Origin: Diacronema lutheri | Lineage: Eukaryota > Haptophyta > Pavlovophyceae > Pavlovales > Pavlovaceae | Direction of reading: 5' to 3' | Length of the DNA: 64,000 bases | Assembly (NCBI GenBank): GCA_019448385.1 | Contig: JAGTXO010000005.1 | Span: 1,465,184 to 1,529,183, forward strand | Shown here: piece after piece, positions 32,833-54,075 of the stretch | Position numbering within the stretch: the first letter of the stretch is position 1 | Layout: every line of letters starts with the position of its first letter | The notes under the pieces: model-generated | What the model was told of the DNA's origin: nothing | The model's input: the letters and a program-made list of their open reading frames with translations, nothing else | The model's database searches: none | Made by a program: the position numbers and the translations under genes

Positions 32833-32917
32833 GTATAGATGGTCAAGCCAAATCCGATCAGGGGCACGATCGCGCCCCGAGTGCAGCGCGGGCCGTTCGG
32901 AAGGACGTCCTTGTGAG
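32833..32917 (-). ncRNA. Candidate Fanzor guide-RNA scaffold / element end, copy B
   Basis: Read on the minus strand: CTCAC (32917-32913), AAGGACGTCCTT palindrome running into CCTTCC, a 7-bp hairpin GGGGCGC-GATC-GTGCCCC (32878-32861), ATCGGATTTGG (32858-32848), ten bases containing ACC, TATAC (32837-32833). From ATCGG to TATAC, 20 of 26 positions equal copy A without a gap. The hairpin stem is preserved although its sequence differs, which points to structure. Position 3' of the Fanzor frame fits a guide-RNA scaffold; other element-end functions are possible. Confidence 0.35.
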
Positions 32918-33237
32918 GGAGCTCTTCGCGTTTGGCGAGCGGGGGAGCACGACGCGCAGCGTTGCTGCGGCGGCGTGCGGGCGGCGAGCAGCGGTCGGGC
33001 TGCTCGCGACGAGGCCGGAGCAGACGGCGCCGTGGCCGCCGGCGCAGGTGACGCGCGCCGACGAGCCGTAGCGAGCGTCCGTGATCCGCACGGCGGTTGG
33101 AGCGGGCCGGCTGGTGCGGCGCGCTCGGCCACGGGTGGCGGCGTGCACGGTCGTGCCGCGCGCGGCACGCGTCGCCAGCCGCGCGCGACCTGGGCAGAGC
33201 CCGCAAAGCGTCGACCGCTGCGCGGCTCGGCCGTGCG

Positions 33238-36200
33238 TCAACGCCGGCCGCGCTTCGGCCCGCGCGCGCTGCCGCCGCCGGCACTGGCGCTGGCAGCTCC
33301 GCGGGCGGGGGTGCGGGCGCGAGAGCCGCCGCCGCCACCGCCGCCGCGCCCGCCGCCGTCGTCGCCACCGCCGTCGCCGCCGCCGCCTCCCCCGCCGTCA
33401 TCGTCGTCGTCGCCGCCGCCGCCTCCGTCGCCGTCGCCGTCGCCGTCGCCCTCGCCGCCGCCGCCGTCGCCGCTGCCATCGTCGTCGTCGTCGTCGTCGC
33501 CCTCGTCGTCGCCCTCGTCGTCGCCGTCGCACTCGTCGTCGCAGTCGTCGCCCTCGCCGTGCACCATGCGCTCCTCACGCTCCCACACCTCGCCGCGCGC
33601 CCACCAGGCGAGCACGAGGGCAAAGCGCTCAGGCGTCGACGTGGTGTCGCGCCCGGCCGCGTGCGCCGCCATGTCGTGCACGTCGTAGAAGATGTTGCGC
33701 GCGGCGTTGTAGTCGCGGTGCACGGGCTTCTTGCCGCCGTTGCACGCCGGGCAGATGACGAGCGCGTGCACCGTGCGCGTGCCGCCCTTTGCCACGGGCA
33801 GGCGCGGGTTCTGCGCGAGCTCCGCGCCGCAGCGCTGCAGCCTGCCGCCCTTGGCGAGCCGCGGCATCGAGCAGTGCATCGACGTGTACGGCTCGGGCAC
33901 GAAGACGGCCGCGACGCCGCGCCGCCGCAGCTCGCGCAGCAGCCCCACCTGGAAGGCGGGCGGCGCGCCCTTGGGCTGCGCGCCCTTGTGGTCGCGCAGC
34001 CACTTGCCCACGCACACGAGCAGCCGGTCGCGCGTCACGCCGTCGACACAGTGCGCCGCGATGAGCGCCTCGGCGACGCGCGCCGCGTTGGACCGCCCGC
34101 CGCTGTCGCGCCGCCAGCGCTCCTTCCGGCGCGCCGGCGCGTCGTACACGTGCTCGGCGGCGCGCTCGCGCACCCGCGCGCTCTCGCGGTGGAAGGCGTG
34201 GAACTCGCCCTCGCCGAGCACCTTGGCGCTGTGCGCCTCGCCAAGCCGCGCCTCGTCCGCCTCCACGCTGAACTCCTCGCCGCGCCCGTCCTTGCGCACG
34301 CGCCGCCGCGCCGCGTTGGTCTTGGCCGTCTCGCGCGCAAAGCCCGCGGCGCGCGCGCGCGCGCGCTGCGTGAACTGCCGCCAGACGGCCGCCCGCCCGA
34401 CGTGCGCAGAGTAGGTGGTGATGTTGCCCATGTTCGGGTCGGCCGCGACGACGACCGCCGCCTCGACGTCGATCGCCCGCCGCAGCTCGGAGCCGAGCGC
34501 GACGGCGATGCGCCCGTCCGGCCGGCGCCAGCGGTGCAGGACGCCCGAGCCGCCGGCCGGCGCCTGCGCCTTCGGCACGAGGACAGTCCCGACGGCGTGC
34601 ACGGCGACGCCATCTGTCACCACCGACTTGACGGGCTGCCGGCCCGGGAGCGGCACGCGCGGCAGCGGCGCGAGGCCAACCCACGAGCGCCGCGCGTGCC
34701 ACGGCAGATCGGCCGGCGGCCGCTCGCGCCCGGCGTAGTCGAAGACGCGGTTGGAGATGTCGAAGCGCGTCGCAAAGACCGCGTACCTGACGCGCACGTC
34801 CGACATCGGCGGGGTGTTGCCGTTTGTGCCTGTCCACTTGATCGGCTCGCCATCGTGGTCGCGCAGGTCCAGCGCCTTGAGCCGCGCGCGCAGCTCCTTG
34901 CGCTCGTCATCCGAAAGCGTCACCCAGATGGCGCTCGCGGCGAGGCGCACGTTGCGCGGCACCTGCGCGCAGCGCGCGGCGCGCGAGCGCGCGGGCGCGT
35001 GACCAACCTGGCCGCGGGGCGGCGCGCACGGCGGCGGCGCGCGCGCTTGGGCGCTCGGCGGCGGCAGCGGCAGCCGCGCCTCGCGCGCACATTGTGCGTG
35101 CGCAGCGGCGCCACATTGTACCGCGGCGGCCGTCCGGTCAGCTGCGTGTGGATGTGCGCGAGCCGGCAGAGCAGCGCCTGCCCCTCGGCCACGTGCTGCA
35201 GGGTGCGGATCTGCACGAGGAAGTAGCGCGTCGTGTGCCGGTCGTAGTTCCACCTTTTCGTGGGCGTGCACTTGTAGTCGATCTTGTGGAGGACCATGTC
35301 GGGCAGGTGGCGGTCGAGCGCGGCGGGGCAGCCGACGCGCGCGCCCTCCACGTCGCCGCGCAGCAGCCGCTCGCACAGCTCGCGCACGCGCGCGTTTCGC
35401 TGCATCTCGGGCAGCGCGACGAGCGCCTCGTCGCGCTCGACTGCCGCGCGGACGACGTCGCGGAGCAGCCCGTTCACGACGCGCGATGGATGCATCAGGC
35501 ACGCGGTGGACACCTGCGTCGCCTCCGCCTCGAGGATCTCCGTGAGGCCCACCGCGCAGACGGGCTGGACGCCCTCGGCCATCTCGCCGACGGCGCGCGC
35601 CGTCGCCGCCTTGGTCTGCGCGGCGGCTTGCTCGGCGGGCTTGCCTCGGGGCGCTGCACCGTACGTGCTCTCGTCCTTGTGCCAGCCGATGGCCGAGAAG
35701 ATCGCACGGACGGTTCCCTTGTCCATCGTGGTCGACGTGTGCACGCTGGTCGACGGGCCGCCCGACGCCGCGCCGACGGCCTGCGCGCTCGCCACCGCAG
35801 CCTCGTCGCGCACCACCTTGTTGATGACGCGGTACGCCTGTGTCGTGAGCCTGTGCACGGCCGCCGCGATGCGCCGCAGCTCCTTCCGCGCACCGGGCTG
35901 CGCCGTCACCGCCTGCGGCCCCGCGTTGAGCGTCGAGCGCTTGACCACGAAGCCCGGGAGCACGCTGACGCGCGTGCGCGCCGTCGCGCCGCCGGCGGCG
36001 CGCGCGCTCGGCGCAGCGGGCTCGTCCACGCGCGCGCGCTCGACGCCGCGCGCGCGGGGAACGCTCGGCGCGCGCGCGCCCGCGGCGTCGCGCGCGCTCG
36101 CGGCGGCACCCGCCGCGGCGCGCTTGCCCGCGGCGCCCGACTCGCCGTGCGCGCGAAGCGGCGCCGACGCCAATGCCGACGCCGCGCCCGCGCCGCCGCT

Positions 36201-39200
36201 GCCGCTGCCCGATACGCCCGCGCGCCGCTTCTGCTCGTCGCGCGTCTTGCGGAACTGGGCGACGAGGTCGCTGCTCACGTTGGCCTCAGGCTCCCACGTG
36301 TCGGCGCTCTCGTCGTAGCCCCGCCACCTGATCCGGAACTGGAACGTCACCTTCTTGCCCGCCTTGCGGCGCTCGTCGACGACCGCCTCGACCTCGTACG
36401 TGCGCGCCTCCTCGTCGACGCTCGCGCCCGCCGCGCTCGCGCCCGTGTCCGGCCACCCAGCGACCGTGCCGCCCAGCCTCTCGGCGGCCGCGCGCAGCTG
36501 CCGCTCGCGCTGGGCGGCCGCGGCGCCTCGCGCGACCAGCGCGGGCAGCATGCCCGCGCCGCCCGCGAGGCCGTGCGCGCCGACGCTGGCGGTCATCAGC
36601 GCGTCGAGGCACGCGAACGTTGCGAGCGCACGCGCGCCATCGTCGCCGCCGCGCGGCTGCGAGCGCACGACGGGCGATGGCCGCGGCTCCCCCTCGGCCG
36701 CGAGCAGCGGCCAGATCGCACTGGCCAGCGCGACGGCATGCGCGCCGACCGCGACGGCCACGTCCGCGTCGAGCGGCGCAAAGTCGTAGCGCACGAGCGC
36801 GGCCGGGCGCGAGTCGTCCGTCGGCCGGTCGGCGACGAGCAGCCCGACCGGGCGCGGCGGCTCGCCGGACGGCGCGGCGACGGGCACGCAGAGGAGCACG
36901 ACGAGCAGGCGCGGCGTGCCGCCGAGCAGCGCGCGCGCGGCATCCGCCCCGTCGGCTCCGCCGCGCGCGGCCGCGGCGAGCAGCTCGGCCGCGCGCGTCG
37001 GGCCCAGCGCCGTGCGCGCGTCCTTGCGCGCGCGTGCGCGGGCCGTGTACGCGGCGCAGGCGTCGTCGAGCACCGCCGCGCTGGGCGCGGTGCCAGTCGT
37101 CGCCCACGCGCGCAGCGCGTCGCGCACCCGCGTGACGATCGCCTGGTCGACCGCCGCCTCGCCGGCAGCGTGCGCCGGCGCGCACGCCGGCGGTGCGGCG
37201 GCAGGCGCGAGCGCGGGCGCGCCGTCGGCGCCGTCAACGCCGACGGCGCCGTCGGCGCGCCGCCACGCGAGCTTCGCCTCGATCTGCTGCCGGACGGCGT
37301 GGCAGTGCCGGTCGATGCCGCGCGCGTCGTCGAGCGCGGCCAGCGCGTCCTCAGCGGCGGGACGGCCGCTCGCGTCCGCGACGGCCTGCAGGCAGAGCAG
37401 CGCGGCCGCACGCGCGTTGCACGCGCTCTGCGGCTCGGGCGCGAGCGCGAGCTCGAGCTCGAGCGGCGACGCGCCTCGCGCCGCGGCGATCGCGTCCATC
37501 AGCACGTCCAACCGCTGCACCAGCGCCCTGTGCGCGTCGCGCGGCGCGCCCGTCGACGGCGCGCGCGAGCGCGTCGCCACGAGCCCGAGCGCGCGCGCCG
37601 GCGCGCCCGCCGGCGTGTGCAGCACGAGCAGCGCCGCGCCCGCCAAGCTCGCGTTGCGCGTGACGAGCGCGAAGATGCGCGTCGCCTCGTGCGCGCCCAC
37701 CGACGCCCAGATCGCAGCGCGATCGGCGTCCGTCTGCGCGTCGCACAGGTCGCGCACGTCGTCCGGCGCGAGCAGCGCGCCGCCGCCGGCGGAGCGCGCG
37801 ACGATCGCCCGCGCCTCCGCCACGAAGACGGCCTGCGGCAGGTCGGCGTGGCGCGCGTCGACGATGGCGCGCGTCGCGTGCACGCCGAGCTCCACGCCGC
37901 GGTAGAAGGCGCGCGCGTTGGCCGCGCGCGCGTGCGCCGGCCGTCCGTCCGCGTTGCGCCTCGCGCGCGCCTGCTTGCTCGTGCGCGCGAGGCCGTCGCG
38001 TGGCGGTGGCGGCAGCGTGGCGAGGAAGCGCGCGGCGGGCGGCGGCGCGCGCACGCCGCGCTGCCGCCGTGCGATGGCCGCGAGCCGCCGGCCCGCCGCG
38101 CTGCCGCCCGCGCCGACGTGCTGCCGGCGGCCGAGCGCCGCCGGTGGCGGCGGCGGCGGCGGCGCGGCGGCGGGCGGCGGCGCGACGGCGGGCGGCGGCG
38201 CGGCGGCGGGCGGCGGCGCGGCGGTGGGCGGCGGCGCGGCGGCGGGCGGCGGCGCGGCGGCGGGCGGCAGCGGCGGCGGCGCGGCGGCGACGGCAGCACC
38301 AGTCGGCTTGTCCGCCCACGCACCCGAGACTCTGTCCCAGACCTTGCCCCATGGCGCGCGCCCACGCGGCCGCGCGAACTGCCCCGGCTCGAGCGCCTGG
38401 CCGCGCTTGGCGGCGGCGGCGGCGGCAGGGGGCGGGCGGCCGGCGCGCCAGTCGAAGACAGGTGCAACCGTGGCGGCAGGCGCCGAGTGCCGCGCGTCGG
38501 TCACAGAGCGCGTGGTGCGCGCGGCGACCGTGGCACGCCTGGCGGGCGGGCGGTGAGCAGCGCCCGCCGGCGCGCCGGCGGGCGCGGCCGCCTCGAGCCC
38601 GGCGGAGGCGCCGCGCTTGCGCTTGCGCGTGCCGCCGCGCGTGCGCCTGCGCGCGCGCCCGCCGCGCGCCCGTTCGGCCTGCGCGTCGCCAGCCGCGTCG
38701 CCGGCCGCGTCGCCGCGCCGCACGTAGACGACCGCGAACGCCTCCTCGCCGGTCCCGTCGACGCCGCCGCGCGCGCGGCGCAGGACCGACCGCCACTGCA
38801 GCCGCCGCGCGCGGCCGGGCTCGCACGCAAACCAGCGCCCACCGCGCCTGACGACGGCCACAAAGTCGTCGTCGCGCCGCCCGCGCCGGCGCGTGCGCAG
38901 CAGCACGCACTGCACGTCGAGCCAGCCCTCGTGCCAGTCGGCCGTGCTGGGGGCGACGCGAATCGACTGCGGGAGCTCGACGCCAAAGCCGGCGAGGCGC
39001 ACGATGTGCGCGACGATGACGCTCGAAATGGCGGGGGCGCTCGACGGGTCGCCCGCTGCAGCGAGCACCGCCCCGCCCCAGTGCTCACGCGTGACGCAAT
39101 CCGCGTCCTCGACGTGCACGTGCGCCACGCTCGCGCCGAGCTGGTGCAGCAACGCGCAGATGTCGGCGTCGACCGTCCTCTCCTCCTCGGCCGCCTCGGC

Positions 39201-42200
39201 CGTGCCGCGGGCGGCGGCGTCGCCTGCCGGCTGCCCGAGGTACGCGATCGCCCGCTCGACGGCCGCGCGCTCCGCACGCGCTGCGCTGTCGATCGCCGCA
39301 TTGCCGACGGGCGCGCGCAGCGCCGCGATCGCGTCTTGCAACGCCGTCGCGTCGCCCGTCGCCGCCGCCGCCGTCACCGCCGCCGCGCTCGCGGTGCCGT
39401 GCGCGACGGCGTGCAGCGCGGCGGCGCGCGCGGCGGGGATGCGCCCGTCCAGCGCGAGCACGAGCGGCGGCCCGGCCGGCGTCTGCTGCCGCCGGTGCCG
39501 CCGGCTCGCAGCCGGGTGGTCGGCGCGCGCGCGCTCGAGCCGCGCGCGCCGCTCGACGACGCGCGCCCAGAAGGCCTGCACCCTCGGCTGCGCGAATGCA
39601 AGCCAGCCGGCGCCGCGCGTCACGACGTGCACGACGATCCGGTCCTCGTGCCTGAGGTACTGCACGTAGAGCGCTTTGCTCACGCCGAGGACGTGCATGC
39701 CGAGCTGCAGCTGATCGCGGTGCGGCTGCGGCGGCCCGTCCTCGTGCGCCGTGGCGCCCGCCTTGGTGAGCGTCTTCACCTCGACGAGGACCTGCTCGTT
39801 GTTTTCGGGGAGGATGGCGAGCCCGTCCGGCGAGAAGGCGAACGGCGCGCTCTTGTCGTGCGGGTCCGCACGCACCATCGGCAGGTTGCACACGACGGTG
39901 ATGCCGTACGCGGCCGCCAGCTTGCGCAGCGCGACGGCCTCGCCGAGGATGCCCGCGGTCGTCGCCTTGGTCCGCACCTCGCGCCGCCGCCGGTGCACGT
40001 ACTCGTCGGTGAGCGTCTCGTGCGCGACGCCGGCGTTGTCGTTCACGACGTCGCCAACCTTGCTGCCCGTGACCTCCTCCCATCGCTCGTCGTGCCAGCG
40101 CGGGCTGCGCTGCGCGGGCGCGCCCGCGCCGACGGCGTCGAGCACGCGGCGCAGCGCTGTGCCGTCGGGCGCAGCAGGCACGCGCGCGCGGTCCTGGGCC
40201 TCGCGAGCGTCGAGGACGCGGCCCGTAGTGGAATCTTGGGGTAGGTCGAGCTTGCTCGCCTCGCCGTAGCGGCTCTCCAGCTGGCGCGGTGCGTCGGCAG
40301 GGCCGCCGTCCGTGCGCGCACCCGACGCGCCCGCCAGTGCACGCGGCGCAGCGTCCGAGGCGCCCGCCGCGCCCGCGCCGCCGCCAATCGCGCCAGCGCA
40401 CGCGCGCGCCGCGACCTGCGGACGGCCAGCCGCAGGGACCTCGTCCGCTCGGCCGGCCGCTGCGTCGGCCGTCCGCTTGGCCACCTCGCGCACGTCTCCG
40501 AGCGCGAGCGTGGCTGGCGCCGTCCAGCTCCCGTTGCGTTTGTCCCAACATTTGAGCAGCCCGCCAAGGAAGGGCGTGCCCGTCGGGCGGTCCTCGGGCA
40601 CCTCCGCCAGGATCGCGTCGACGCGCAGCGCGGCCGCCACATCGCAGAACGCGCGCGCGGCGCGCGCCATCCGCTCGGCGCGCGCGCCGCCGTCGTCCGC
40701 CGCGCGGCGGATGGCGTGGCTCACGTGCGCGACGCGGAGCGAGACGACGGCGTGCGCCGGCGCGTCGGCGCCCGTGCCGAGCGTGTGCCGCCGGATGGCC
40801 AGCTGCCCATCGCCCATGCGCGGCGGCAGCGACGCGCACGCCGCGACGGTCGTCGTGCCGGCCGCGCTGTCGCACAGCCAGCTCGCCTCGCCGCCGCCCG
40901 CAAACTCAAAGGTCGCGAAGCCCTCGCGGCCGAAAAGCGCGACGAAGTGGTCGAGCACCGCCTTGTTGATCGCGCGCGCCGCCGGCCGCGTCGATGCGCC
41001 GCGGGCAGCGCCACCCGCCGCGCCGCGCGCATCGCTGCACGTCGCAGGGCAGGTGCAGCCGGACGCGCGCACGCCGTCCGACCGCGTCCGCGGCAGCTCG
41101 AGCTCGCGCACCTTGGGGCAGAACCAGAGCGGGCTGGACGCCTCGAGGCACAGCACGACGAGCCGCCCGTCCGTGCCGGCCAGCGCGCGCGCGTCGCGCA
41201 GCAGCTCGACGGCGAGCTCGGACGTCGCCGCGTGCACCGCCGGCTCGCCCGTCGCGCGGTCGGGCGGGAAGAGGCCGCCGCCGACGAGCGGGCTGGGGCA
41301 GCGGCCGAGCATCACGAGAAGCGGCGGCGGCGGCGTCTGCGGCGCCTGCTGCCCGACCGCAGCCGCCGTCAGCCCGGCCAGGTCGGAGCTCGTGCGGAGG
41401 GCCTTGAGCGCGACGCGCGAGCCGGTGCCCGCCTGCTCGGAAAACGTGGCGAGCATGGCGCACGTGCTCGCCCTCGCGCCGCACTGCCAGCTGACGCGCG
41501 CGAGGAGGCCTTCCAGCGTGTCGTTTTCGCGCGGCCGCGTGACCGCGTCGAGCGCCGCCGGGCCGAGCTGGAGGCTGCCGGGCGTGACGCACAGCACCGC
41601 CTCGTGGTAGGCGCGCAGCAGCTCCCTCGGCAGCTGCTCGGCGGGCGTCGCCGCCTGCCCGCCCACCCACCGTGCACCGTGGCCGCCGTCGCCCGCGCCC
41701 GCGAGCCGGACCGCCGGCCCGCCCGTGATCGCCGAGGTCGGTGGCGTGCCGAGCGCGTCGACGAGCGCGCGCACGGGCGCGACACGCCTGCGCGCAGCGT
41801 CCGCGCCGACGGCGAGCGCGGCGATCTGAGCGCCGTCCCATGCGCGCTCCCTCGCGTCGTCCCGCGCGGCCGCCGGCGCGGCGCCCGGCCGCGCGCCGGG
41901 CGGCACCGCGCACGCCGCCGCGACGACCTCCGCGCGCGCGCCGGCGGCGTCGGGCGCGTGCAGCTGCGCGAGCGCGCCAAAGAGCGCGGCGGCCGAGCGG
42001 TAGCGGCCGTGCGCCGCGACGAGCGCGTAGAGCACGCGCAGCGCGGCCACGCCCGCCTGGTCGGGCGCGTCGCCAGCGATTTGCTCGACCTCCCACGTGC
42101 GCGTGGGCGGCGGGCTGCCGTCGGCCGGGTCCGGACGCAGCGCCCACGCGCGCTCGACGATCGCGTTGAACACGCCGTGCGCGGCGCCCTCGTCAAACTC

Positions 42201-43811
42201 GGCGGCGCCCGCCGCGTGCGCGCACCACCCGTGCACGCGCGACGTGGGCGCGTCCACGGCGCGCTGCACGACGAGCACCGCCGGCCGGTCGACGCAGCCG
42301 AGGCTCACCGCCGCGTGCTTGCCCTCGAGCAGCGCCGCCGCCGCAGCCTCGACCAAGGCGTCATCAGGCGCGTCGCCGACGACGACGGCACAGCCGTCGC
42401 CGTACTCGGCCTGCATCGCGGCGACGCACGACGCGACAAAGTCGCCGCCCGCGGCCGCCGCGTGTCGCGCCGCCAGCATCCGGCGCGCGATGGCAAGCCA
42501 GACGTACTCAGCCGGCGCGCGCGCGGCGCGCGCGCGAGGCGCGCCGGCCGCGCCGCGTGCGCCCGCGCGTGCGCCTCCAGCGGCCGCAACGGCCGAGGCG
42601 GCTGGAGCGGCGGTGAGCGTGCGCCGCGCGCGCTTCGCCGGCCGCGTGATGGGCGATGCACCCGCCATCGCACCGCCCGCAGCAGCCGGTGCGGCCGCCA
42701 CAGCGCCCGCCGCAACGCCACTCGTCACGACGCCCGTGGCGGGCGGCGCGGCGGCGGACGTGGCCGCCTCGACGGGCGTCGCGCAACTACCGCCAGCGGT
42801 CGCGGACGCGCCCGGCGACGCGTCGGCGAGGAGGTGGCGCAGCACGCCGCGCGCGAGCGCGACTCGCACGGCGAGCGTCAGCGCGCGCAGGCGGTCGGAA
42901 GGCGAGGCGTCGCGCTCGGCGTCGGCGGACGTGGCGGCAGCAGGCGGGGCGGCGGGCGGCACGGCGGCGGGCTGGGCGGCCGTCGGCGCAACCTCGTCGG
43001 CCTTGGCCAGCCAGACGAGCCCGGCGACTGCGAGCACGACGCTGTACGCGCCGACATCGTCACCCGCAACGCGCGCCAGCCGGGCGTGGGCGTCGGCCTC
43101 GGACACGGCGACGTGGAAGAGCACGTCGTCGCGGGCAGCTTGCTCGGCAAACTGACGCAGCTGCTTGGCCATCGTCACGCCGGCGACGCACGCCTCGCCC
43201 GCCTCTGCCTCGACCTGCTCGTCCTGGCCGATGGCGGACGCGCCGGCCTCGGCGCCAGCGTCGAGTGTCCGGCGGCGCTCGAGGGCGAAGCCACGCACAC
43301 AGACGCGCTGGAGGCCGCCGAGCGCGCCCGCCTTCTCGTGCAGCGCGCACGACAGCTCGACCACCGAGTCCACGCGCCTCGCGGCGGCGCCCCCCCGCTC
43401 GCCGCGCGTGGCCGCGCGCACGACGAACACCGTGAATTGCGCGCGCTTCGCCGCGCGCGCCGACGCGCACGCGTGCTTCAGGAGCCGGCAAAGCGCGGGC
43501 CTTTGCGCCGCTGCGCCCCGCGTGCACAGCAGCAGTTGGCCGCGCTCGTCGCCCAGCTCCTGCTCGACGGCGGCCTCGAGCGCGTCGTCCGTCAAATCGC
43601 CGTGCTCCGTCGAGGCGAGCGCGCGCGCAGCCGCGAGCGCCAGCTCGCCTGCGCCCGCGCGCCGCCGGCGGCGCGCACCGGCGGGCGCGTGCGGCGCCGA
43701 CGCGTGTGACGACGCCGCCGCGTCCGCGCGCGCACACGCGGCGCGCAACGCCTCACGCGCCGAGGCGGCCGCGCGCGCCCTGGGCGCGAGCTTCAAGAAC
43801 GTGCGCGCGGC

Positions 43812-43884
<73 letters not shown>

Positions 43885-46800
43885 TCGCCCGCGTCGCCGG
43901 CCGGCGGCGGCGGTGGCGGCGGTGGCGGCGCGGCCACGGCGGCGGCAGCAGCGGCGGCGGCGGCGGTGGCGGCGGCGGCGGCGCCCAGCGCGGGCGGCGG
44001 CGGCGTGGCGGCGGCGGTGGCGGCGGCGGTGACGCCAGCGGCGGCCTTGGCGCCGCGCGTCTGCGGCGGCGTTTCGGCGCCATCGGGGCTGCCCCCGCCG
44101 CGCACCGCGCTCGTGACCGCGCAGACGCCGCCCGGCGCACGATCGCTGGCCGCGCCGGTCAGCGCGACGCGGAGGCGCTCGCCGACAGCGTACATGTCCG
44201 CCACGCTGAACGTGCGCGGCGCGGACGAGCAGCCCGCCGCGGCGAGCGCGTCGTTGAGCGCGCCCACTATCGCGAGGCCGCACGTCGCGCCACGCTGCGC
44301 CGCCTCGTTGAGCAGCAGCGCGCGGCGCACGCGCGAAATGTCGAGACCCGCCGCGTGCAGCGTGGCAGTTATCGCCTTGGCGAGCATGAGCGCCTGCCTG
44401 CAGGGCGACGCGAGCGTGTCGACGAGCACCGCGTCGTAGCGATGCTCGCCCGCGCGCGCGACGCGCACAAGGCGCAACGCGGTGAAATGGCCGGAGGCGA
44501 GCTGCGCGCCGTCGTCACCGCCCGCGCCGCCGCGCTCGTCCGACGGGCTCCACACGCCGATGACAGCCTGCGTTGTCGCCTCGCTGCGCAGGCGGTGCAG
44601 CAGCGCGGCGCGGTCGGCGTCGTCCTGAAACACCGCGGGTTGCGCGGCGAGCGGCACGTGGCAGACATGCCCGCCGCCGGCCTGCCCGTGCACGCGCAGC
44701 ACGACCTCGCAGCACGCGTCGACGGTTGAGGCGAGCATGTCGCCGCTGGCGATGCGCTCCACCTCTGCCTGCGGGAGGCCGGCGCTCGCGGCGGCGGCGG
44801 CCAGCCGGCGCGCAGCCGCGTCGCCCGCCCACGCAAGCAGCGCCGAGTTGGCGGGTTGGAGGGGAAGCTCAAGGGCGGCTGGTTCGGTGGCGGTAGCCTC
44901 GTTGGCAACGGGCACGTTGGCGGTGCGCGCGTTGGCGGCGGGCGCGGCGGCGATGGCTGGTGGGGCGGAAGACGCGCCCGCGGCGGCGGGCGCGGACGCG
45001 GCAGCGGCAGCGGCTAGTGGGGCGGGGAAAACGCCGTCGGTGGCAGGCGCGGAGGCGAATGCAGGAGCAACTAGTGGGGCGGGAAAATCGGCGGCAGGCG
45101 CGAAGGCGGATGCAGCAGCGGCTAGTGCGGCGGGGAAAACACCGTCGGCGGCAGGCGCGAAGGCGGATGCAGGAGCGCCCAGCGGGGCGCAGAAAACACC
45201 GTCGGCGGCAGGCGCGAAGGCGACAGCAGCAGCGGCCAGTGGAGCGGAGGCGCAGGGCCACGCGCGCGCCAGCCGTGCAAGCCCAAGCCGCGCGCGAGCG
45301 ACGCACGCGCCGATGGCCGAGGCGGCGGCGCAGGCCACGACGTGGCCTGGCACCGGTGTGGCCAGCCGCTCGCGGGTGTGCACGTCGAGCCGCGCCCCAC
45401 GCCAAGAGCGGCGGCGCGCTGAACGGAGGCGCGCGACCCCGATCGATCCGCCCGCGCACGCGCGCGCCGGCTCAGTGTGGCCAACGCGCGCCGTTATGCA
45501 AGGCGCGCGCGCGATAACGGCGGCTGTCGGCCGTGGCGTGCGCGTGGCGGCGCCGCGGCGACGGGCGCGGCACACGAGCCGCTCGGGCGCGCCGCCGCCG
45601 CGCGGCACGATGTCGAGCAGCACGGTCACGCCGCGCGCGCGCGCGACCGCCGTGCACGCGAGCCGCACGGGCAGCGGCGGCCCGTCCGGGCGCGCGAGCG
45701 CCGCCACCTCGGCGTCGGTGAGGCTGTGCAGCTCGCGGCGCGCGCGCGCGAACGCGGCGATGTCCGCGCGCAGCTCCGCGTCCGTGCCGAGCGCGGCACG
45801 CGCGTGCACGGGGAGCGACGCGCGCAGCGCGTGGAGCACGCCGCCGCGCGCGCCGCGCGGCGCCGGCGCGCGCTCGCGCTCAGCGCGCGCGGCGCGCGTG
45901 AGCTCGCGCACCGCGCGCGCGAGATTGCGCCGCGCGGCCGCGACGGGAGGGCTAGGTGCGCGCGCGCGCCGGTTGTAGCGCGGCCGCGCCGAGTCGAGGG
46001 GCGGCGGACGCGGTGCGTACGCCGCGGCGCGGCCCGCGCGCCAAAAGGCCGGCGGCGGGCGCAGCTCCGTCGCGTCGACCGCGGCCGCGAGCGCGCCGAG
46101 CGCGGCGTCGCTGTCGCCCGCCGCGTCGGCCGCGTCGACGAGCACGAAGAGCGCGCCGAGCGCGCGCGACGCGGCCGCCTGCGCGGCGGTGGGGCGGGCG
46201 CAGGCAGCGACGCATGCGGCCGCCATGCCGCGCGCCGCGGCGAACGCCGGTGACGTGACGGCCGCGCCGATGGCAACGGCGGCGGCGGCGACGGTCGAGG
46301 CGGCAGCGCCGGCGATGGAGGTGGCAGCGGCGGCGGCGCTTGCCATCGCGCGGCGCGCGAGACGCGAGGCGCCACCGACCGCCGCCGCCGCAGCGCGCGC
46401 TGCGCGCGCGCCGGTGGCGCGCATCGTCGCCGCGCCAGGCGCCGCCGCGCCGACGCCGCCGGCGCCCGCGCCGTCGCCGCTCTCGGCCGTGCAGGGCTCC
46501 GATGGCGAACCCGGCGTGCGCTGGCGCGTGATGCGCGCGCCGAGGCGCGCGCTCCGCGCCGCGCGGCCGGCGACGTCGAGGAAGCGCCGTGCGCGCGCCG
46601 CGCGCAGGCCACGCGCGCGCGGCGGCGCACCGACAGGCGCCGAGCGCCGCGGCGCGCACGCCGGCGCGTCGCTGTCGGGTTGCGCAGCGCGCGCGCGGGA
46701 ACTCGGCGCGGCGTGTGCGGGCGGCGGGCGCGCGCCCGCGCGGCGCAGAGGCGCGAGGCGCCGGCCGCAGACGAGGCGTGTGCGCAACCAGGACGGCGAG

Positions 46801-49800
46801 GGCCGCAGGGCGCCGTCGACGTCGCGCATCGGCGGGCCGCGAGCCCGCCGCGCAGCCGTGCGGCGCGCGCGAGGCGCTCGGCGGCGCGCGCGCCGCACGG
46901 CGCGCGCGGCGGCGCGCACGCCAGCGACGGCTGCGGCCACGCCGCGCGCCAACACGGCCGCGGCGTGCGCCATCGCACCGAGCACGGCGCGTGGCGCGCC
47001 GAGCAAGCGCAGCAAGCGCGACGCCGTCGCGCGCGCCGGCGCACCGTGTGCAGGGGCCTCGCCAGCGCCAGCACCGACGCCGCCATCGCCGCAGCCGCAG
47101 GTGGCGTCGCCGCCGCCGCAGGCGTCGCGACGGACGCCGCCGCCGCCGAAACAACCGCCGCACACGTCGCCGCCGACGTTGCCACCCCAGCCGCCGTTGC
47201 GTGCGCAGGTGGCTGCGGCGCGTGCGTGCGGGAGGCGTGCCGTGCGGCGCGCATCACACGGGCTGCGCGACGCGAGCGACGCCGCCGGGGTCCCCGCTGC
47301 GCCAGGCGCGCCGTGCGCGCCAGCCTCGCCGGCCTCGCCGGCGCGCGGTCGCGCGCTCGCCTCGACGTGGCCGCCTCCGCCGCCATCGCCGCCGTCGAAC
47401 CGGGCGGCGGAGGGCTGCCGCTCGAACCGCTCGTCGGCGTCGGCCGCCACCGCCGCCTCGCGCTCCGCCGCCGCGGCGGCCGCACGGCGCGCGTGGCGGA
47501 GCGCGCGGCCGCCGTCCGCTGCGCGGCGTGGCGGCGCGGGCGCGGGCTTCGGCGCGCGCGGCCCCTCGGCGCGCTCGCGGAGCACGGCGAGCGGCGTGCC
47601 CGTGGCGACGCTCGTGCAGACGCGCCGCAAGGCGGCGCTTACGCACGCGTGGACGACGCGCGCCGTCCGCTTGTCGGCGGCGCGCGCGGCGCGGCGCGCG
47701 GCCTTGGCGGCGGCCTTTTTGGCGCGCCTCTGCTCCGCCTGCTCCGACAGCGCGCGCGCCTGGCGCTCGGCTGCGAGCGCGTCCTCGGGCGAAACGGTCG
47801 GCCTCGGCGGCCGCGCGCGCGCGCTGCGACGCTGCGCGCTGCGGCGGTCGGACGGCGGCTGCCGCGGCGGCGAGGACGGCGAGCGCGAGCTCGGCGTGGG
47901 CGACCAATCGCCGCTGACGGTTGCGAGCGGCGCAAACGGGTTGTCGTCCCCGCGACCCGCGGCGTGCGACAGTGCACGCGGCGTCGGGCGCCGGCCGACC
48001 GCTGGCGGGCCCCACTCGGACGGCGGCTCCGAGGGCGAGCGCGCCGTCGGCGCCGCGCGTTGCGCGGCCGGCGGCGCCTCCCGGTCCAGCGCCGCCTGCT
48101 CTCTCGCCGCGGCCTGCTCGTCACCCTCCGGCACGCCACGCGGCGCGAGCACCGCGGTGGCGCAGCGCGTCGCGTTGAGCAACGCCGCCTCCATCTGCCG
48201 CACGCTGGCCTTGGCGCACGCCACACCCTGTCTCGCCCGGCGCAGCGCCTCGTGCGCGCGGCGCACTTCCGCGTCGGCATCTTCGCGCATGCCAAAGTGC
48301 GCCTGTTGCAGCCGCAGGTCCGCAGGGCGCCCCTGCGCGCGAGGGGCACGGGCGCGGCGGCGCGCAGGTGACGGAGCTGGCGCGCCGTTCTGCGCTGCGC
48401 GCACGCCAATCGACGGGCGCGCGCGCGGCGGGGCGCGCGCGCGCGCGCGCGCGCGCGCTGCCTACCCAGCCGCCGGCCGGCTCGCGCGAGCGCGCCAGCT
48501 GCTCCGCCGCCTCGGCGTCGAGCACGCGCTGCTGCGCCTCCTCCTCGCCCAGTGCAGCGAGGTGCAGCCGGCGGGCTGCCTTGCGGCAGTTGCCCTCCGC
48601 CTTGCCCACGGCCTTGCGCGCCGCGTCGACGGGGTCGTCGTTGGCTCTGGCGCGCCTGCGCTTGCCCTTGTCGGCGGGCGGCGGCTTGGCGCGCTGCAGC
48701 GTGCCGAGCGCGTCGTCGGCTCCGCGCGCGGCCGCCCGCGGGCGGCGGGCCCCAAAAAGCGCACCGGTCGCCGTGCGCGCCGCGCAAGCAACGACCAGCG
48801 CTGACATGCCGGCGAAGACCGCACCGCCCAGCGCCACGGTTGCCACGATGCGCAGCGTCCCGTGCGCAAGCTGCGCTGCCTCCGCCGCTTTGGCGGCCTC
48901 GCGCGCGCGCGCATCGGCGGCTCTCATCTCGTGCAGCAGCCCGGCCGCGCCGCTCGCGCCGTCGCGGCCGCGCGCGAGCTCGCACAGCACCGCCGCCGCG
49001 CGCCGCGTGGGCTCGCGCGCGAGCAGCTGCGCGCCGCCGTCGGGGCGCAGCTTCTCAACGAACTCGACAAACGTCGCGTCGCGCCAGAGGGACATGCGGA
49101 AGGCCCTGTGCACCGCCCCCTCCTGCTCGCGCATCCGCCGTGCCGCCCGCCTGCCGTCGCGCGCGTGCGCGTGCGCGGCCGCGTCGAATCCCGCGACGCC
49201 GCGCTGCGCGTCGCGCGCGGCCGACGACGGCGCCGCCGCGCTGCCCGCCAAGGGCGCCGCAGCGGCGACGCGCGCGTGCGGAGCGACGGGATCGCCGGCG
49301 GCCGGCGGCTCGGCGCGCTGCGGCGTGCCGTTTGCTCCGTGCGCGGCCGTCCCGGGGGAGATGGCCGCGATGGCGCCGCCAGCCGCGCCGCGCGCCAGCC
49401 ACGCGCATAGGCTGCCGACGAGCTCGCCGAGACCCCCGACGGTCGCCGCGGCGGCGAGTGCGCCGGGCTTGCCGGCCGACAGCGGCTCGCGAGCGTCGTC
49501 GTCGCAGCCGCCGGCACCCGTCTTGGCGAGTGCGTCGCGCTCGCCCTCGACGCCCGCCACGACCGCCGCCCCTCCGTCGTCCGCCGCGCCGGCCGCGCGC
49601 GCGGCCGGGCGCAGAGGAGGCGTGCCGGTGCAGCCGTCGCCGCTCGTCTTCGCCGTTTCCTCCACTTTGGTCACTTCGTCGCCACCTGCGCCATCTCCGA
49701 CGCCGGGGCCCTTGGTCACGCTTGCCGCCATGCGCGCCGTGCCCGCCGGCCAGCCCGCCGACTGCTCGAGCGCGGCGGCGAGCGGCGCGACGCGCGTCGA

Positions 49801-52140
49801 CTCGGGCGCGCTCTCGTCATCGGGCTCGAGCGCGTTGTGCAGGCGCGCGAGCGCGCGCTCGACGGCCGCGGCGCCACTGCCGGGGGCGCGGCTCGCCACG
49901 CGCACCGCGCGCCGCCAGGCCGGCGCGAACATGAGCGCCGGCTCGAGCGCCGCGAGCGCGCGCGCCTCGCGCGCGTCGCTCGCGCCGAGGCGCGGCGGCA
50001 CGCGCGCGGCTCCGCGCGGCGCGGTGCCTCGGAAGCGTGGGCTCAGCGTGTAGGCGAGGTGCTGCGGCACGCCGCGCGCCTCCGCGCGCGCGCGTCCGTC
50101 CTCGACCTCGCGCCGCGCCTTCGCGATCGCCGGCGTGGCGCGCGCGAGCCAGTCGGGGTCGGCGGGCAGGTGGATCACGACGAGAATCGGCGCCCAGTCC
50201 AGCCGCGGGTTCTTGTGACGGTCGGGCACGACCCACACGAGCAGCACCGTGCCCTCCGCGCCGCACGCCGCCTCGTAGATCCTGGGCTGCGAGCGCCAAT
50301 CGGGCCTGACGCGCAGCGCCCGCGCGTGGTCGATGGCGGCGGCGCGGTCGCCATTGAAGTGAACCGTCGTCACCTCGCCGATGACGGACCGGCCGGACCG
50401 CCAGCAGAACACCGCGTCCGCCGACCCGCCGGCGATGGCCGCGAGCGATTCGGGCGCGGCGAGCCGCGGCAAGCCCTCGAAGGCGGCAAAGTCCTCGTGC
50501 GCATTGTACACGCCGCCCCAGCCGTCGTGCGCGTACGCGCGCGCGGCCGCTCGTACCGCGCGCGGCTGGTTCTCCACGCCCGACGTCATGTGCCATGTCG
50601 TCCCCGCGAAGCCGGGCTCGCCCAGCTCGGCCCGCACGACGGCACCGTACCCCGCGCCCTGCGTCGGGGCGGCGAGGTGGTGCATGCCCGCGCCGGTCAC
50701 GCCCTCCGTGCGCTGCCGCGTGACGATCGTGCCCGTCGCGTGCGCGAAAAGCGTGTCGACCACGGCGGGCGCGCGCCCGCTGTTCGCCCGTAGCCGCGCC
50801 CTGCCCGCTTTTAGCTGCTCGGGGTCCTTGGCGTCGTACACGCGCGCGTCCGCGTCGCCCTCATCAGGCGCAGTGTAGACGCAGCGGCGTTCGAGCGGCG
50901 CCGAGCCACCGCCGTCCGCCGCCGCCGGCGAGGTTGGCGCCGCGCCCGCCGCCACCGCGCTCGTCGCCGCCGTGCCCGTCGCCACCGCCGCAGCCGCCGC
51001 GCCCGCGGGGTCGTCGTCCCCGTCCTCCGCGCCCTCCCCGTCGTCAGCGGTGGTGGCGTCGCCATCGTCCCCGTCGCCCTCGCCCCCGCCGAGGCTGCTG
51101 AATGGTCGGGGCCCCCACGCCGAGGCGGCGCGCCGCTGCGGCGCACGCGGCGGTGGCGCTCGCGACGGCGGCCTTGGCGCCGCCGCGCCGCGCGGCCTGG
51201 CCGCCGTCGACAGCGCGCGGCCTGCAGCGCCCGTGAGCGCGTCGAGCGCGGCCGTGCGTGCGATGCGGTCGTCGGGCGCGCGCAGCGCCGCCTCGACGGC
51301 CTGCAGCAGCCCGTCGGGCGCGGATCCGCCGACACTGGCATCGCACGCCTCGGCGAGCCGCGCGGCCTCGGCGAGCCGCGCGGCCTCGCGGGTGAACGGG
51401 CCGAAGCGCCTGGCGCGGTCGCCGAGCAGAGCGCCGATGGCGGCGCGGAGCGTGCGCGCGCGGGTCTCCTCGTACGCGGCCGTCGTGAGGCGCGCGAGGC
51501 GCGCGTCCAAAGCCTTCTTGATGTCGACAAGGACACTCGCGCGGCGGCCGTAGAGCGTCGATGCGCTCGCCACGACCTCGGCCGCGACTGTTGCCGCGGC
51601 GAAGCAACACGCGGCCCCACTCTGCGGGGGCGCCTTGAAGGCATCGATGGGCGGCGCTGTTCTGCCGATGCGCTGCGCAAGCTTCTTGATGAGCACGCCG
51701 GCCGCCGTGGCGTACGCCGATTCGCCGTTGCCCAAGGTGCGCGAATCGGCGAGCAGGGCGAGCGCGGCGCCGGGCGGCGCGCCGCGCTGCGCGGGCGGCG
51801 CGAGGAGCAGGTACGCCGCCGTCCAGTGCACGAGGCCGCTGGACGCGCGGAGGCAGAGCGGTAGCACGACCACGAGCACCTGCCCAAACCGGTCCGCATC
51901 CGCGCATGCTTTGCGCAGGTTGCGCAGCGCCACCTTGAGCGCATGCTGCGAGCACCCCGTGTCGCCCACCCTAACCCTGCTCGTGCCGAAATCCGCGTAA
52001 CGCAGCAGGGCGATGAGGCAAGTGGATGGGACCACGTGGGGGTGGGTATCTCCCGGCGACAGAATGGTGCTGAGGGCCAGCGAGAAACTGTCCGAGCCGC
52101 CCCGCCCGCCGGGCAAAGCGTCCTTCACGGAGTCCTCCAT
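33238..52140 (-). CDS. Giant protease-nuclease-chromodomain-Fanzor1 polyprotein, copy B
   Basis: Three exons give one open product of about 6,213 residues: 52140-48466 (1,225 codons), 48332-35091 (4,414) and 34962-33238 (574 plus stop). Intron 1 (48465-48333) has a GTAGGC donor and GCGCAG acceptor, intron 2 (35090-34963) GTGCGC and GCGCAG; both are phase 0. Visible order: C48-like cysteine protease; unknown domain; hydrophobic segment and coiled coil; Ala/Arg-rich region; OTU-like domain lacking its Cys; Ala/Pro low complexity; second C48-like domain; degenerate third; conserved unknown module; YqaJ nuclease; Pro/Ala linker; unknown module; chromodomain; Fanzor1; acidic tail. No transposase of another type is seen. 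The lack of internal stops over 18.6 kb of coding sequence suggests a recently active or selected gene. ATG at 52140 is the first in frame. A polyprotein cut by its own protease is inferred. Confidence 0.75.
33345..33560 (-). repeat. Asp/Gly-rich low-complexity tail, copy B
   Basis: GAC/GGC trinucleotide-rich coding sequence giving a tail of Asp and Gly runs after the Fanzor1 domain, followed by a basic end (RGPKRGRR). Copy A has the same kind of tail after a stop codon. Confidence 0.8.
33600..35940 (-). other. Fanzor1 (TnpB-like RNA-guided nuclease) domain, copy B
   Basis: Begins near NAGPQAVTA and ends after HRDYNAARNIFYDVHDMAA. RuvC-I Asp lies in VVVAADPNMGN (codon 34440-34438). The rearranged glutamate lies in FVPEPYTSMHC (33894-33892). 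RuvC-III Asp lies in HRDYNAARNI (33714-33712), the classic TnpB-type ending. CPAC precedes it. KGAPPAFQVGLL and LLVCVGKW match the strand-helix before the glutamate. The domain is split by a 128-bp intron that has no counterpart in copy A. All three acidic residues are present, so this copy is the better candidate for an active enzyme. Confidence 0.88.
36265..36423 (-). other. Chromodomain fused upstream of Fanzor1
   Basis: The segment YEVEAVVDERRKAG, FQFRIRWRGYDESADTWEP and EANV is a textbook chromodomain (Y.VE.I.D.R, Y.VKW.GY....NTWEP, NL). The aromatic cage is Tyr at the start, Trp in RWRGY and a Trp/Tyr pair near TWEP. Chromodomains read methylated histone H3, and chromoviruses use them to target integration. 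In copy A this place holds an RGG/Pro linker and no chromodomain. Confidence 0.85.
39500..40150 (-). other. YqaJ/lambda-exonuclease-type nuclease domain, copy B
   Basis: SPRWHDERWEEVTGSKVGD opens the domain, followed by GILGEAVALRKLA, FSPDGLAILPE (Asp), VLVEVKTLTK (E-x-K) and DQLQLGMHVLG. This is the full active-site pattern of the family, with the same layout as in copy A. Confidence 0.82.
40740..41640 (-). other. Conserved unknown module, copy B
   Basis: Counterpart of copy A 4105-5130, with LPRELLRAYHEAVLCV, PLLVMLGRCP, LCLEASSPLWFCP, INKAVLDHF and FEFAGG. Family unknown. It sits between the protease-like region and the YqaJ nuclease. Confidence 0.6.
42030..42330 (-). other. Degenerate C48-like region
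   Basis: Contains PAVLVVQRAVD, VHGWCAHAAG and DQAGVAALRVLYAL. The last resembles the DCGVxxL nucleophile motif of Ulp1-type proteases but with the Cys replaced. Weak; could be unrelated. Confidence 0.25.
43805..43890. repeat. (GGC)n repeat encoding polyalanine
   Basis: About 26 near-perfect trinucleotides, read as an Ala tract in the copy B frame on the minus strand. Adjacent sequence to about 44040 is related GGC/GGT low complexity. Confidence 0.9.
44240..44560 (-). other. C48/Ulp1-like cysteine protease domain (second)
   Basis: Order of motifs: AVIGVWSPS, SGHFTALRLVRV (His), YDAVLVDTLASP (Asp), then AAQRGATCGLAIVGAL (Gln, Cys). This is the His-Asp-Gln-Cys order of Ulp1/adenain-type enzymes, with residues roughly 2507 to 2574 of the spliced product. 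An active site is plausible. Confidence 0.5.
45600..45880 (-). other. OTU-like domain without catalytic Cys, copy B
   Basis: GARGGVLHALRASLP aligns with GNDCLLAAVLAALP of copy A, and LPVRLACTAVARARGVTVLL with the matching later segment. The Cys is not kept, so if this is an OTU fold it is inactive here. Confidence 0.35.
48180..48860 (-). other. Hydrophobic segment and coiled coil spanning intron 1
   Basis: A 25-residue hydrophobic stretch (RIVATVALGGAVFAGMSALV, about residues 1097-1121) could be a membrane helix. It is followed by a basic patch (KGKRRRARAN) and a heptad-like Ala/Glu/Arg helix. The helix continues across the intron (48465-48333) into GRPADLRLQQAHFGMRED, which supports the splice. 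Confidence 0.5.
50060..50570 (-). other. Unknown alpha/beta domain in copy B exon 1
   Basis: A region of normal composition with HDGWGGVYNAHEDFAAFEGL, ADAVFCWRSGRSVIGEVTTV and EGTVLLVWVVPDRHKN. The Asp ... Glu-x-Thr arrangement recalls a PD-(D/E)XK fold, but the Lys is missing. Function not assigned. Confidence 0.35.
51520..51900 (-). other. N-terminal C48-like cysteine protease domain
   Basis: Near the N-terminus of the copy B product: VLVVVLPLCL, SGLVHWTAAYLLL (His105 with the usual Trp), LALLADSRT (Asp132), PPQSGAACCFAAATVA (Gln173, Cys178/179). The spacing His-Asp about 27 and Gln-Cys 5-6 matches Ulp1/SENP and adenain-type proteases, which occur in several large DNA transposons. Role in cutting the polyprotein or removing SUMO is inferred. 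Confidence 0.6.
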
Positions 52141-52659
52141 CTGCAGACTGTGGGCACGTCAGTGTCCGGATGGCGGCCCGGATGATACTTGGGAGAATTT
52201 ACATGATGCCCTGGAGAATGCCCCGCTCTCCCACAACCAGGACCCGCCAGCGCGCCGAGCCTACTCGTTTGCCCGCGCCGCCTCTCTTTGCGCGCCCGAG
52301 CGCGGCCTCCGAGCGCGGCCAACGTCCTCCGGGGGCGTGCATCGTGGCTGCTCGGAGGGGCTGCGACGCGGCGAAAGCTCGCTGCGCGGCCGCAACGTGA
52401 GCGCGCGCGCGCGGCCGCGCGCCGGCCTGCGCTGCTCTGCACGGCCGCGCGCCGGCCTGCGCAGCCTCGTCGCGCAGCGTGAGCGCGAGCGCGCGCGAGG
52501 CGAGCTCGGCGGATGGGTGCGCGGCGGCGTTGGCGGCGGGTGCGGCGGCAGGCTGGGCGGCGGGTTTGGACGGAGAGTGTCGGGGAAGAACGGGGCGCAT
52601 CCTGGCTGGGAGTTGGACGGCGCCCACCACGCGCTGGCGGATCCTGGTTGCCACCACCA

Positions 52660-52676
52660 CCCCCCCCCCCCCCCCC
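52660..52676. repeat. Poly(C) tract
   Basis: 17 C on the + strand, i.e. poly(G) on the strand of copy B, about 520 bp upstream of its start. Confidence 0.9.
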
Positions 52677-54044
52677 GGAGACGAGGACCAGGGGCATGGC
52701 CGACTCGCTGCGCCGCACAGCGCGCGGCGCGCGGCATGCTGCGCGACCTCAAGCACATCCAGCCGCGCTCCGCCCACGCAACGCGCGCAATGCCGCGTTG
52801 CACTGCAGGTGTGCACGTGCGGCTCTCACGCGCACTGTGTTGCACGAACGGCATCACGCCACCGAGCTGCGTCCGGACCACGCGCCGCGCGCAGGCGACC
52901 ACACAGGGGCGCGCCGCGCCGCGCGTGCGCGCCCTCGCAACCGTTGCAGCACGCTCTGCCTTGCACTGCGCCGAGCCGCCGCGCGCTGTGCGCGTGCATG
53001 CAGGGCGCACGCGTGCGACGAAGCGCGCGCGCGGCGAGGCGCGCGGGCGGCTCGCTGCGCGGGCGGCAACGCGCCCAGCTGCGCCCAGGCCAGGCGCGCG
53101 CCCGCGAGTGCCACCGGGACGCACTGCCCCCGCCGGGGTCGCCGCGCGCTCTGTGTGTGCGCTCGCGCGCTGCGAGCGCGGCGGAACGTTCGTGCATGGC
53201 GCGAAGAGCGCGGCACCCGAAGACGGCTGCCCCGAGCCCGCGCCGGGTGGCAGCGAGCGGCGGCACCTCCTCGGCGAGCCCGCCCCGCGCCTTCCCCTCC
53301 ACGTGGCGTTTTGAGGCAGACGGACACGCGCCCACACTGCGACTGGGCACGCTGCTCGAGGCAGACACGCACCCAACGCGCGCGCACCACGCGCCCGCGT
53401 CGGCGGGCCGGTGTGAACGAGCGAGAGCTCGGTGTCGCCAACGGGGGCACGGGCGCGACTTCGGTCCGCCTCTCGACGGACGCAGGCGACGCTGCCGGGA
53501 ACTTCCCCGACGCCTGCACATCCAGGGCTTCGAGGTACAGAGCTGGGCAACAGTGCCGCTCGTCACCGATGAGGCGGCCAAGCTCGCTATCCTTGCTGCC
53601 CTCGGCTCCACCAAACAGCCGGGCGACCCAACGGTTCGTGATCGCCTGGCCGCCAGGTGCGAACCGCGCCCGTGCAAGCGCTTCACCCGCATTCTCCGCC
53701 CCGCTGCGGACGTCCGCCTGCCGGCCGCGAACACGGCCGGTGCGCGTTGCCGCCTGGCCCAACACGAAAACCCGCCCGCCCCCGAGGCCGCAGGTCCTAC
53801 CTGCCCAAGCGCAGCCCAACGGCACGCAGACAGCCCGCCTTGGCAACCGACTCGTGCGCGAGCGCTCCGCCCTCCACAAGAGCCTGCCCCACGCCACCGC
53901 CGACGCGGAGCCAGCGCAGCCGACGCCCCTCCGCGACGCTCGCGCCGCAAGGCGCAAGGGCCCCGGCGAGACGGCGTCAACCAAGCCCGCCGCTGGCACA
54001 GCGCCGGCACCCGGAGCCCACCCCAAGCCCCCGCGCACGCCTCG

Positions 54045-54074
<30 letters not shown>
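54045..54074. repeat. Poly(C) tract
   Basis: About 30 consecutive C on the + strand in non-coding sequence. Confidence 0.95.

Positions 54075-54075
<1 letters not shown>

Follow-up and report, generated by a model that had tools for sequence, protein, structure and literature searches.

A giant, recently amplified, Fanzor1-bearing element of the haptophyte alga Diacronema lutheri with resemblance to Helitrons

The closest described relatives of the element reported here are CRe-1, CRe-2 and CRe-3 of Chlamydomonas reinhardtii, Helitron2 elements in which Fanzor1 has already been published (Bao and Jurka 2013, PMC3627910). The CRe elements are described as non-autonomous and frequently 5'-truncated, the truncated copies being often flanked by duplications; where the ends are complete there is no target duplication, internally deleted relatives exist, and the Fanzor genes have five or ten exons. 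Why eukaryotic transposons retain Fanzor nucleases is posed as an open question in PMC10432273, where the parallel with TnpB-assisted copying is discussed. We analysed 64,000 nucleotides of Diacronema lutheri (assembly GCA_019448385.1, contig JAGTXO010000005.1, positions 1,465,184 to 1,529,183; hereafter the window, in whose numbering all coordinates are given unless a contig is named). The window contains a mobile element of 31.04 kb at 32833..63873, on the minus strand (5' end 63873, 3' end 32833), as are all its features given below except two palindromes and an inverted-repeat unit, which carry no strand. This element likewise places a Fanzor1 in an algal Helitron-related family, with internally deleted relatives and hardly any target duplication. 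Unlike the CRe elements it is 31 kb long, most of its 3' ends are matched by a 5' end, and its Fanzor lies in frame with a chromodomain and a lambda-exonuclease-like domain along some 6,200 codons.

The limits of the element were read from its copies. Similarity among six fetched copies breaks off at 32833, and at 63873 where a copy reaches that far; unrelated flanks lie beyond, and the flanks differ at every sampled copy. Two other full copies (A and B, on contigs C9 and C30) are colinear with the window copy over 31 kb, with about 0.4% substitutions; these three are the full copies compared in what follows. The initial annotation had described the giant gene and had proposed a search for further copies. 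In the genome searched (43,492,796 bases in 103 contigs, the window being on contig C82) the exact 3'-end pattern has 212 matches and the exact 5'-end pattern 210, against none for the reversed patterns used as controls. This means that the giant gene is not a standalone unit: its frame is the 3' coding core of an element of 31 kb, and either end of that element is found at about 210 places.

From the 100 places listed for each end pattern we used those on contigs C1 to C43 (97 3' ends and 99 5' ends) and looked for a partner within 40 kb. A correctly oriented 5' end accompanies 67 of the 97 3' ends, and the lengths so defined fall in discrete classes: about 31.0 kb (30 copies), 21.5 kb (12), 29-29.5 kb (9), 26-27 kb (7) and nine others. 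Counting both ends thus led us to abandon the view that most copies are 5'-truncated, as they are in the CRe elements. The 67 paired copies total about 1.88 Mb (from binned lengths); by extrapolation from these pairs, all of the roughly 210 copies would come to about 5.9 Mb, or about 13% of the genome, for which the genome paper gives 22.9% repeats (PMC8379373). Contigs C1, C5, C6, C10 and C12 start, and contigs C8, C13, C14, C32, C33 and C43 stop, a few bases from the 3' terminus of the element. Because contigs break there, some contig-end copies may have been counted twice, and the element therefore probably limits the published assembly.

We read this family as Helitron-like: a giant transposon of Diacronema lutheri which bears Fanzor1, has been amplified recently and is moved in trans. 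We give this reading about an even chance of being right. "Helitron-like Fanzor1 element" is the best-supported name by resemblance, the Rep and the terminal sequences by which an element is filed as a Helitron being absent from what we found. In the order of transcription the element opens with a 5' region that includes a palindrome and an inverted-repeat unit; the helicase gene comes next, followed by a UCH/USP-like frame and by the giant frame. The resemblance lies first in the helicase gene (58307..60432), a decayed gene of the Helitron-type PIF1 class in which PF05970 and Pif1_2B are matched in two different frames. Against solved structures its best match is Helraiser (1.5e-22), followed by PIF1 (3.7e-7), while a host PIF1 taken as a control gives the reverse (PIF1 1.9e-106, Helraiser 1.4e-16). 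Hence, by these profile matches, the element helicase is nearer to the Helitron type than to cellular PIF1. The frame switch between its two halves is common to all three full copies. Its N-terminal part, missing from both of the 21.5-kb copies we examined, includes a domain of 250 aa (59680-60432) joined to the helicase and forming a separate family, with ten stand-alone relatives of 246-310 aa (P0012-P0021) which carry no Pfam domain. No intact element helicase was seen in the two best-covered matches, which proved to be the host PIF1 and a diverged, N-truncated element copy, the other matches not having been read individually. Given this decay of its own helicase and the failure to find a Rep, we infer that the element is moved in trans.

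The termini also speak in part for this reading. Terminal inverted repeats are absent, as in Helitrons such as RepHel and Helraiser (exact inverted matches between the outer 150 bases do not exceed 6 bp, against a shuffle mean of 7.6). Read in the orientation of the genes, the ends of most copies are NTATATA(G/C)GG...CATCTATAC, and the 3' terminus is CTATAC in 20 of the 24 copies in which it was read (the last bases are different in L024, L033 and L038, and the divergence of L036 sets in 13 bases earlier). Target duplications were sought in 26 paired copies, of which 22 remain when the four ending at a contig end are set aside; 21 of these 22 share at most two adjacent bases between their flanks, and a wider comparison covered 16 of them. 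The sole copy with a target duplication, of 12 bp (GCGAGGACTATA), is L063/L064 at about 2,907,800-2,938,850 of C9, whose 3' flank resembles the 5' end of the element (CTATATACGG). The base just before the element is A or T in 20 of the 26 copies with a 5' flank (p 1e-5 against the flank composition). No empty site was seen among the fetched loci when compared by their fetched flanks (a single 37-bp match was obtained), the genome not having been searched with joined flanks.

Several results weigh against the reading as a Helitron-like transposon with a maintained giant gene, and those on the side of the Helitron are the following. PF14214, the profile of the Helitron Rep, is absent from the element and a motif scan for an HUH Rep gave nothing convincing, not every frame of the 5' region having been profile-scanned. 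The 3' end is CTATAC instead of CTRR. Elements of the Helitron2 type have hairpins at both ends and asymmetric terminal inverted repeats. Near the two ends of this element one finds palindromes (a 3' subterminal quasi-palindrome at 32861..32878 and an 18-bp 5' subterminal palindrome, GTACGACCCGGGTCGTAC, at 63809..63826), but the fold of the 5' palindrome stays near its shuffles (z -1.8), the last 68 and 150 nt fold about as well as shuffled sequence does (z -0.5 and -1.1), and the longest inverted match of the ends is the one of 6 bp mentioned above. In the pairing described above no partner was obtained for 30 of 97 3' ends and for 32 of 99 5' ends. Helitron1 elements have 5'-TC and CTRR-3' as their ends and insert between A and T. 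These rules do not describe this element either: 11 of 26 copies have TC where the 5' junction lies, and the first base of the 3' flank is mixed, with T in 4 of 25. Thus, although its helicase is closest to Helraiser among solved structures, the element differs from RepHel Helitrons in that its Rep was not found, its helicase is decayed and fused to an unrelated domain, and neither CTRR nor an A-T target is present.

These departures from the Helitron rules, together with the undetected Rep and the decayed helicase, would suit a giant element that belongs elsewhere (to the tyrosine-recombinase elements, to the DDE elements or to an unknown class) and that had captured a Helitron helicase gene. 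We consider this possible but rather unlikely, as such an element is ill matched by ends without terminal inverted repeats and by the near absence of target duplications. Moreover the 16 matches of Phage_integrase (PF00589) in the genome all lie outside the element of the window (a search that left the Crypton-specific family aside), and no transposase Pfam was matched in the element frames scanned. As to the Rep, the only Helitron_like_N (PF14214) match in the genome is a single fragment (L027, C63:35738-36019), which probably belongs to a different, canonical Helitron.

We now turn to the giant frame itself. The minus strand holds three open frames, one of 1345 aa at 48121-52158, one of 4513 aa at 34920-48461 and one of 1015 aa at 33238-36285, which the initial annotation had joined by in-phase GT-AG introns; this junction was reproduced with the same coordinates. 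Exon 1 (48466..52158, residues 1-1231, first Met codon at 52140), exon 2 (35091..48332, residues 1232-5645) and exon 3 (33238..34962) are connected, as predicted from sequence alone, by a putative intron 1 of 133 nt (48333..48465) and a putative intron 2 of 128 nt (34963..35090), the latter within the Fanzor region. The predicted spliced product has 18,660 coding bases and 6,219 residues, with no internal stop, its first Met being residue 7. Exon 3, which carries the RuvC and zinc-finger half of the Fanzor1 and an acidic tail, corresponds to a database protein of 570 aa (P0010, 99% identical). This protein is also the sole database relative of the chromodomain-Fanzor query (half of the query covered; 7,987 candidates scored), and no giant homologous protein was found among 1,369 scored candidates.

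The GC content across the giant gene is 75-83%, and long open frames are found on both strands, the others reaching 1,787 and 2,245 aa. Because the GC content is so high, the length of a frame is by itself a weak proof. We therefore compared each part with second-order Markov simulations of matched composition. The entire 4,513-aa frame exceeds the simulated maximum of 1,855 (60 runs), and its core, 35091-44915, has 3,275 open codons where the simulated maximum is 1,608 (60 runs). Exon 1, with 1,231 codons, exceeds the longest simulated frame (1,230, in 200 runs) by a single codon. The openness of 44916-48332 (residues 1232-2370) and that of exon 3 are within the simulated range, that is, no greater than composition permits. 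The absence of stops over 18.6 kb, to which the initial annotation had pointed, thus goes beyond chance for the core and for the 4,513-aa frame as a whole, barely so for exon 1, and not for these two parts. That the frames could be chance products of GC-rich DNA, or an artefact of assembly, is suggested by the long frames on both strands and by the several contigs which end at the element. This explanation is hardly credible and is largely refuted by the simulations, the core being twice as long as the simulated maximum; the domains lie in frame, and each sampled copy has flanks of its own. As far as the sequence goes, the joined minus-strand reading frames are real.

Whether they make up one gene is a different matter, for which the other subfamilies are informative. 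In both 21.5-kb copies the part from 44956 to 32833 is common to the window at 97%, while everything 5' of 44956 is replaced, so that the frame has an unrelated N-terminus (it measures 4,089 aa in one copy and 3,762 aa in the other, owing to an upstream frame difference). A 14.6-kb copy has a frame of 3,023 aa and a duplication of part of the core, and a copy on C28 joins 58791 to 40419 over a 12-bp overlap. Internally rearranged derivatives of the element retain both of its ends. Hence, in the copies examined, the 3' core through the Fanzor is kept and the 5' part is exchanged or deleted. The exchange of the N-terminus at 44956, the 3,023-aa frame, and the composition-level openness and weak codon-position GC contrast of 44916-48332 would all be accounted for by two separate genes, one for exon 1 (about 1,230 aa) and one for the core, chromodomain and Fanzor (at most about 3,850 aa), with 44916-48332 non-coding. 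We regard this division as having slightly less than an even chance; it concerns the gene model and not the element. Against it, though as weak arguments both, one can say that 44916-48332 has neither a stop nor an indel in either of the other full copies, and that a GT-AG intron links exon 1 in phase. The giant polyprotein of the initial annotation stands as a long and unusual frame, which may or may not yield a single chain.

The domains found in the frame are of unequal clarity. The chromodomain (36246..36398) matches PF00385 at 5.7e-12, above the cut-off, the best chromodomain of the PDB giving 1.3e-8. At the C-terminal end, the Fanzor zinc-ribbon and RuvC-III end (33691..33930) matches Cas12f1-like_TNB at 4e-6, with 27.3 bits for a cut-off of 26.3; this family is matched in at least 148 places of the genome. 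The Fanzor1 C-terminal motif as defined in PMC3627910, D-X(125-275)-[TS][TS]-XX-[C4 finger]-X(5-50)-RD, is present as D5820, X184, TS6005, the C4 finger and R6061-D6062, and the D, E, C4 and RD residues align. A profile built from two Fanzor families of this genome matches, among solved structures, Cas12f1 best (1.2e-4), then SpuFz1 (6.4e-4) and GtFz1 (0.0086); the NCBIfam guided_TnpB match is weak (0.085). By motif and profile likeness, then, the C-terminal end appears to be of the Fanzor1 type, which agrees, as does the chromodomain, with what the initial annotation had proposed. It had also named a YqaJ nuclease. The YqaJ/lambda-exonuclease family domain (39654..40115) matches TIGR03033 at 3e-5 over positions 3-151 of 153 and PF09588 at 0.031, and both matches are under their curated cut-offs, yet almost full length; the assignment is accordingly kept in a qualified form.

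A third proposal, a C48-like protease, was not borne out beyond the level of motifs. An N-terminal domain (51496..52140) has a HW...DS...Q...C pattern (DUF7525 0.78; model pLDDT 42.2), and a second H...D...Q...C pattern lies at 44106..44861 (model pLDDT 38.5) and is retained in the 21.5-kb copy L010 at 83% identity. We take such an arrangement to be the His-Asp-Gln-Cys pattern of Ulp1 (C48). No peptidase profile of Pfam was matched in the giant frame at E<=1, nor in the two Ulp1-like segments at E<=10, and a Foldseek search with the model of the second gave no match at E<=0.001, both models being of low confidence.

A large element carrying such domains might also be an integrated virus or a polinton-like element, which we think very improbable. 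YqaJ nucleases occur in large DNA viruses. Fanzor genes are present there too (PMC3627910). However, no PolB, integrase, capsid, polymerase or packaging domain was found in the element frames scanned, the ends have no inverted repeats, and scans of viral contigs with the Fanzor, with the helicase region and with the helicase N-terminal family gave no relative.

On the reading as a Helitron-like transposon moved in trans, these domains suggest a mode of action, which we derive from the established biology of TnpB/Fanzor and of lambda exonuclease and from the position of the Fanzor gene. As with the TnpB of IS200/IS605 elements and with Fanzor nucleases, the RuvC D...E...D residues and a C4 zinc finger are present and the gene adjoins the end of the element, beside the flank which would be the guide (PMC10432273, PMC10711439); unlike in these systems, the Fanzor shares its reading frame with a chromodomain and with a nuclease, and the guide RNA is only a candidate, its scaffold being placed by position alone in the 405 bp of the 3' untranslated end between the giant frame and the 3' terminus (32833..33237). 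The element would move by copying, in a reaction like that of a rolling circle and driven in trans. The Fanzor1 end may bind a transcript running off the 3' end of the element, in which the host flank would serve as the guide, and may cut those copies of the site that lack the element. The cut ends would then be resected by the YqaJ/lambda-exonuclease domain, the chromodomain would keep the complex on chromatin, and repair would copy the element back in, resulting in retention or homing. The domains could act either as parts of a single chain, about 6,200 residues long, or as an exon-1 protein plus a core-Fanzor protein. In a stronger variant, which we hold to be quite unlikely, the element would need no classical transposase in order to spread: a single huge protein, at once RNA-guided nuclease, lambda-type exonuclease and reader of chromatin, would cut a target chosen by the 3' transcript and resect it, repair would copy the element in, and the helicase would be a relic of a Helitron ancestor.

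The initial annotation had attributed the absence of stops to selection or to recent arrival. Between subfamilies, 39 of the 80 changes in residues 2371-2640 are at third positions (p 0.004), the corresponding figures being 12 of 57 for the helicase (Fisher p 0.0012) and 24 of 93 for the two UCH halves; for the giant frame overall, the third-position share differs from that of the helicase at p 0.019. The helicase and the UCH frame look unconstrained, because they show no third-position excess. Among the full copies the giant frame has no stops, and its indels (as aligned by MAFFT) are all in repeats and have a net length which is a multiple of three. In A and B they are a deletion of 18 and a +24/-29/-4 group (net -9) near 38.3-38.6 kb, and B has in addition +36 at 43876, the second frame staying open at 4,504 and 4,516 aa. 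Outside the giant frame there are 11 indels per comparison, 8 of the 11 not being multiples of three; several of these outside indels lie in homopolymer runs, which belongs among the points on the other side.

To these points must be added that the non-synonymous and synonymous changes of the giant frame number 74 and 26 in A and 59 and 18 in B, which gives dN/dS values of 1.1 and 1.3; that all aligned giant codons compared with the 21.5-kb copy give 85 third-position changes out of 221 (p 0.12), and 46 out of 141, with no signal, when residues 2371-2640 are left out; and that for the Fanzor the counts are 14 of 37 with the 21.5-kb copy and 22 of 47 with the 14.6-kb copy (p 0.06). These substitution patterns thus support constraint on one segment of the giant gene (2371-2640) and not along all of it. 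Because divergence is only 0.4%, dN/dS is 1.1 and 1.3 and a single segment is significant, the lack of stops indicates youth more than it proves selection, so that recent arrival is the half of the original alternative which holds. The same applies to the family: of the 146 element copies scored, 102 have their chromodomain within an open frame of 4,000 aa or more (scoring covered 150 of 260 candidates, and the four best matches, taken as other chromodomain genes, were set aside), which, at such low divergence, mainly shows youth.

Fanzor1 in Helitrons is known; what seems new is the giant element, in which one reading frame joins Fanzor1 to a chromodomain and a DNA-resecting exonuclease domain. 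In size and in gene capture the element is comparable to the giant gene-capturing Helitrons of maize, which reach 39 kb; these carry captured gene fragments, whereas the Diacronema element is dominated by one long frame (PMC6431247). The main text of the genome paper, supplements apart, has no occurrence of "transpos", "helitron" or "fanzor" (PMC8379373), and we found no published account of the element or of a chromodomain-nuclease-Fanzor frame in the literature covered, from which most subscription papers and bioRxiv were absent. As the family is young and preserves about 210 copies of each end with differing flanks, predicted guides, target sites and any effect on retention can be tested copy by copy.

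The remaining features of the element and of the window can be given briefly. Between the helicase gene and the giant frame lies the UCH/USP-like deubiquitinase frame (55501..56994; PF00443 2.1e-7), whose codon positions show no constraint. The 5' region holds an inverted-repeat unit of about 870 bp (61005..61875), which is probably a nested insertion. The genome holds a second Fanzor family, with at least 14 matches at about 44 bits and frames of up to 1,779 aa (L001-L008 and L048; contigs C1, C4, C9, C11, C25, C69 and C85). One long copy of it was fetched: it has a repeated hydrophobic N-terminal stretch, and the Fanzor is its only Pfam domain and the only domain that the two families have in common. 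Just outside the element, 30116-32776 is a host gene for a sulfate permease that includes a STAS domain; the element lies 56 bp behind the stop codon of this gene, and there are runs of G at the junction. Finally, near the start of the window (225-1797), a minisatellite repeats a 54-bp unit in 29 copies which match at 88%.

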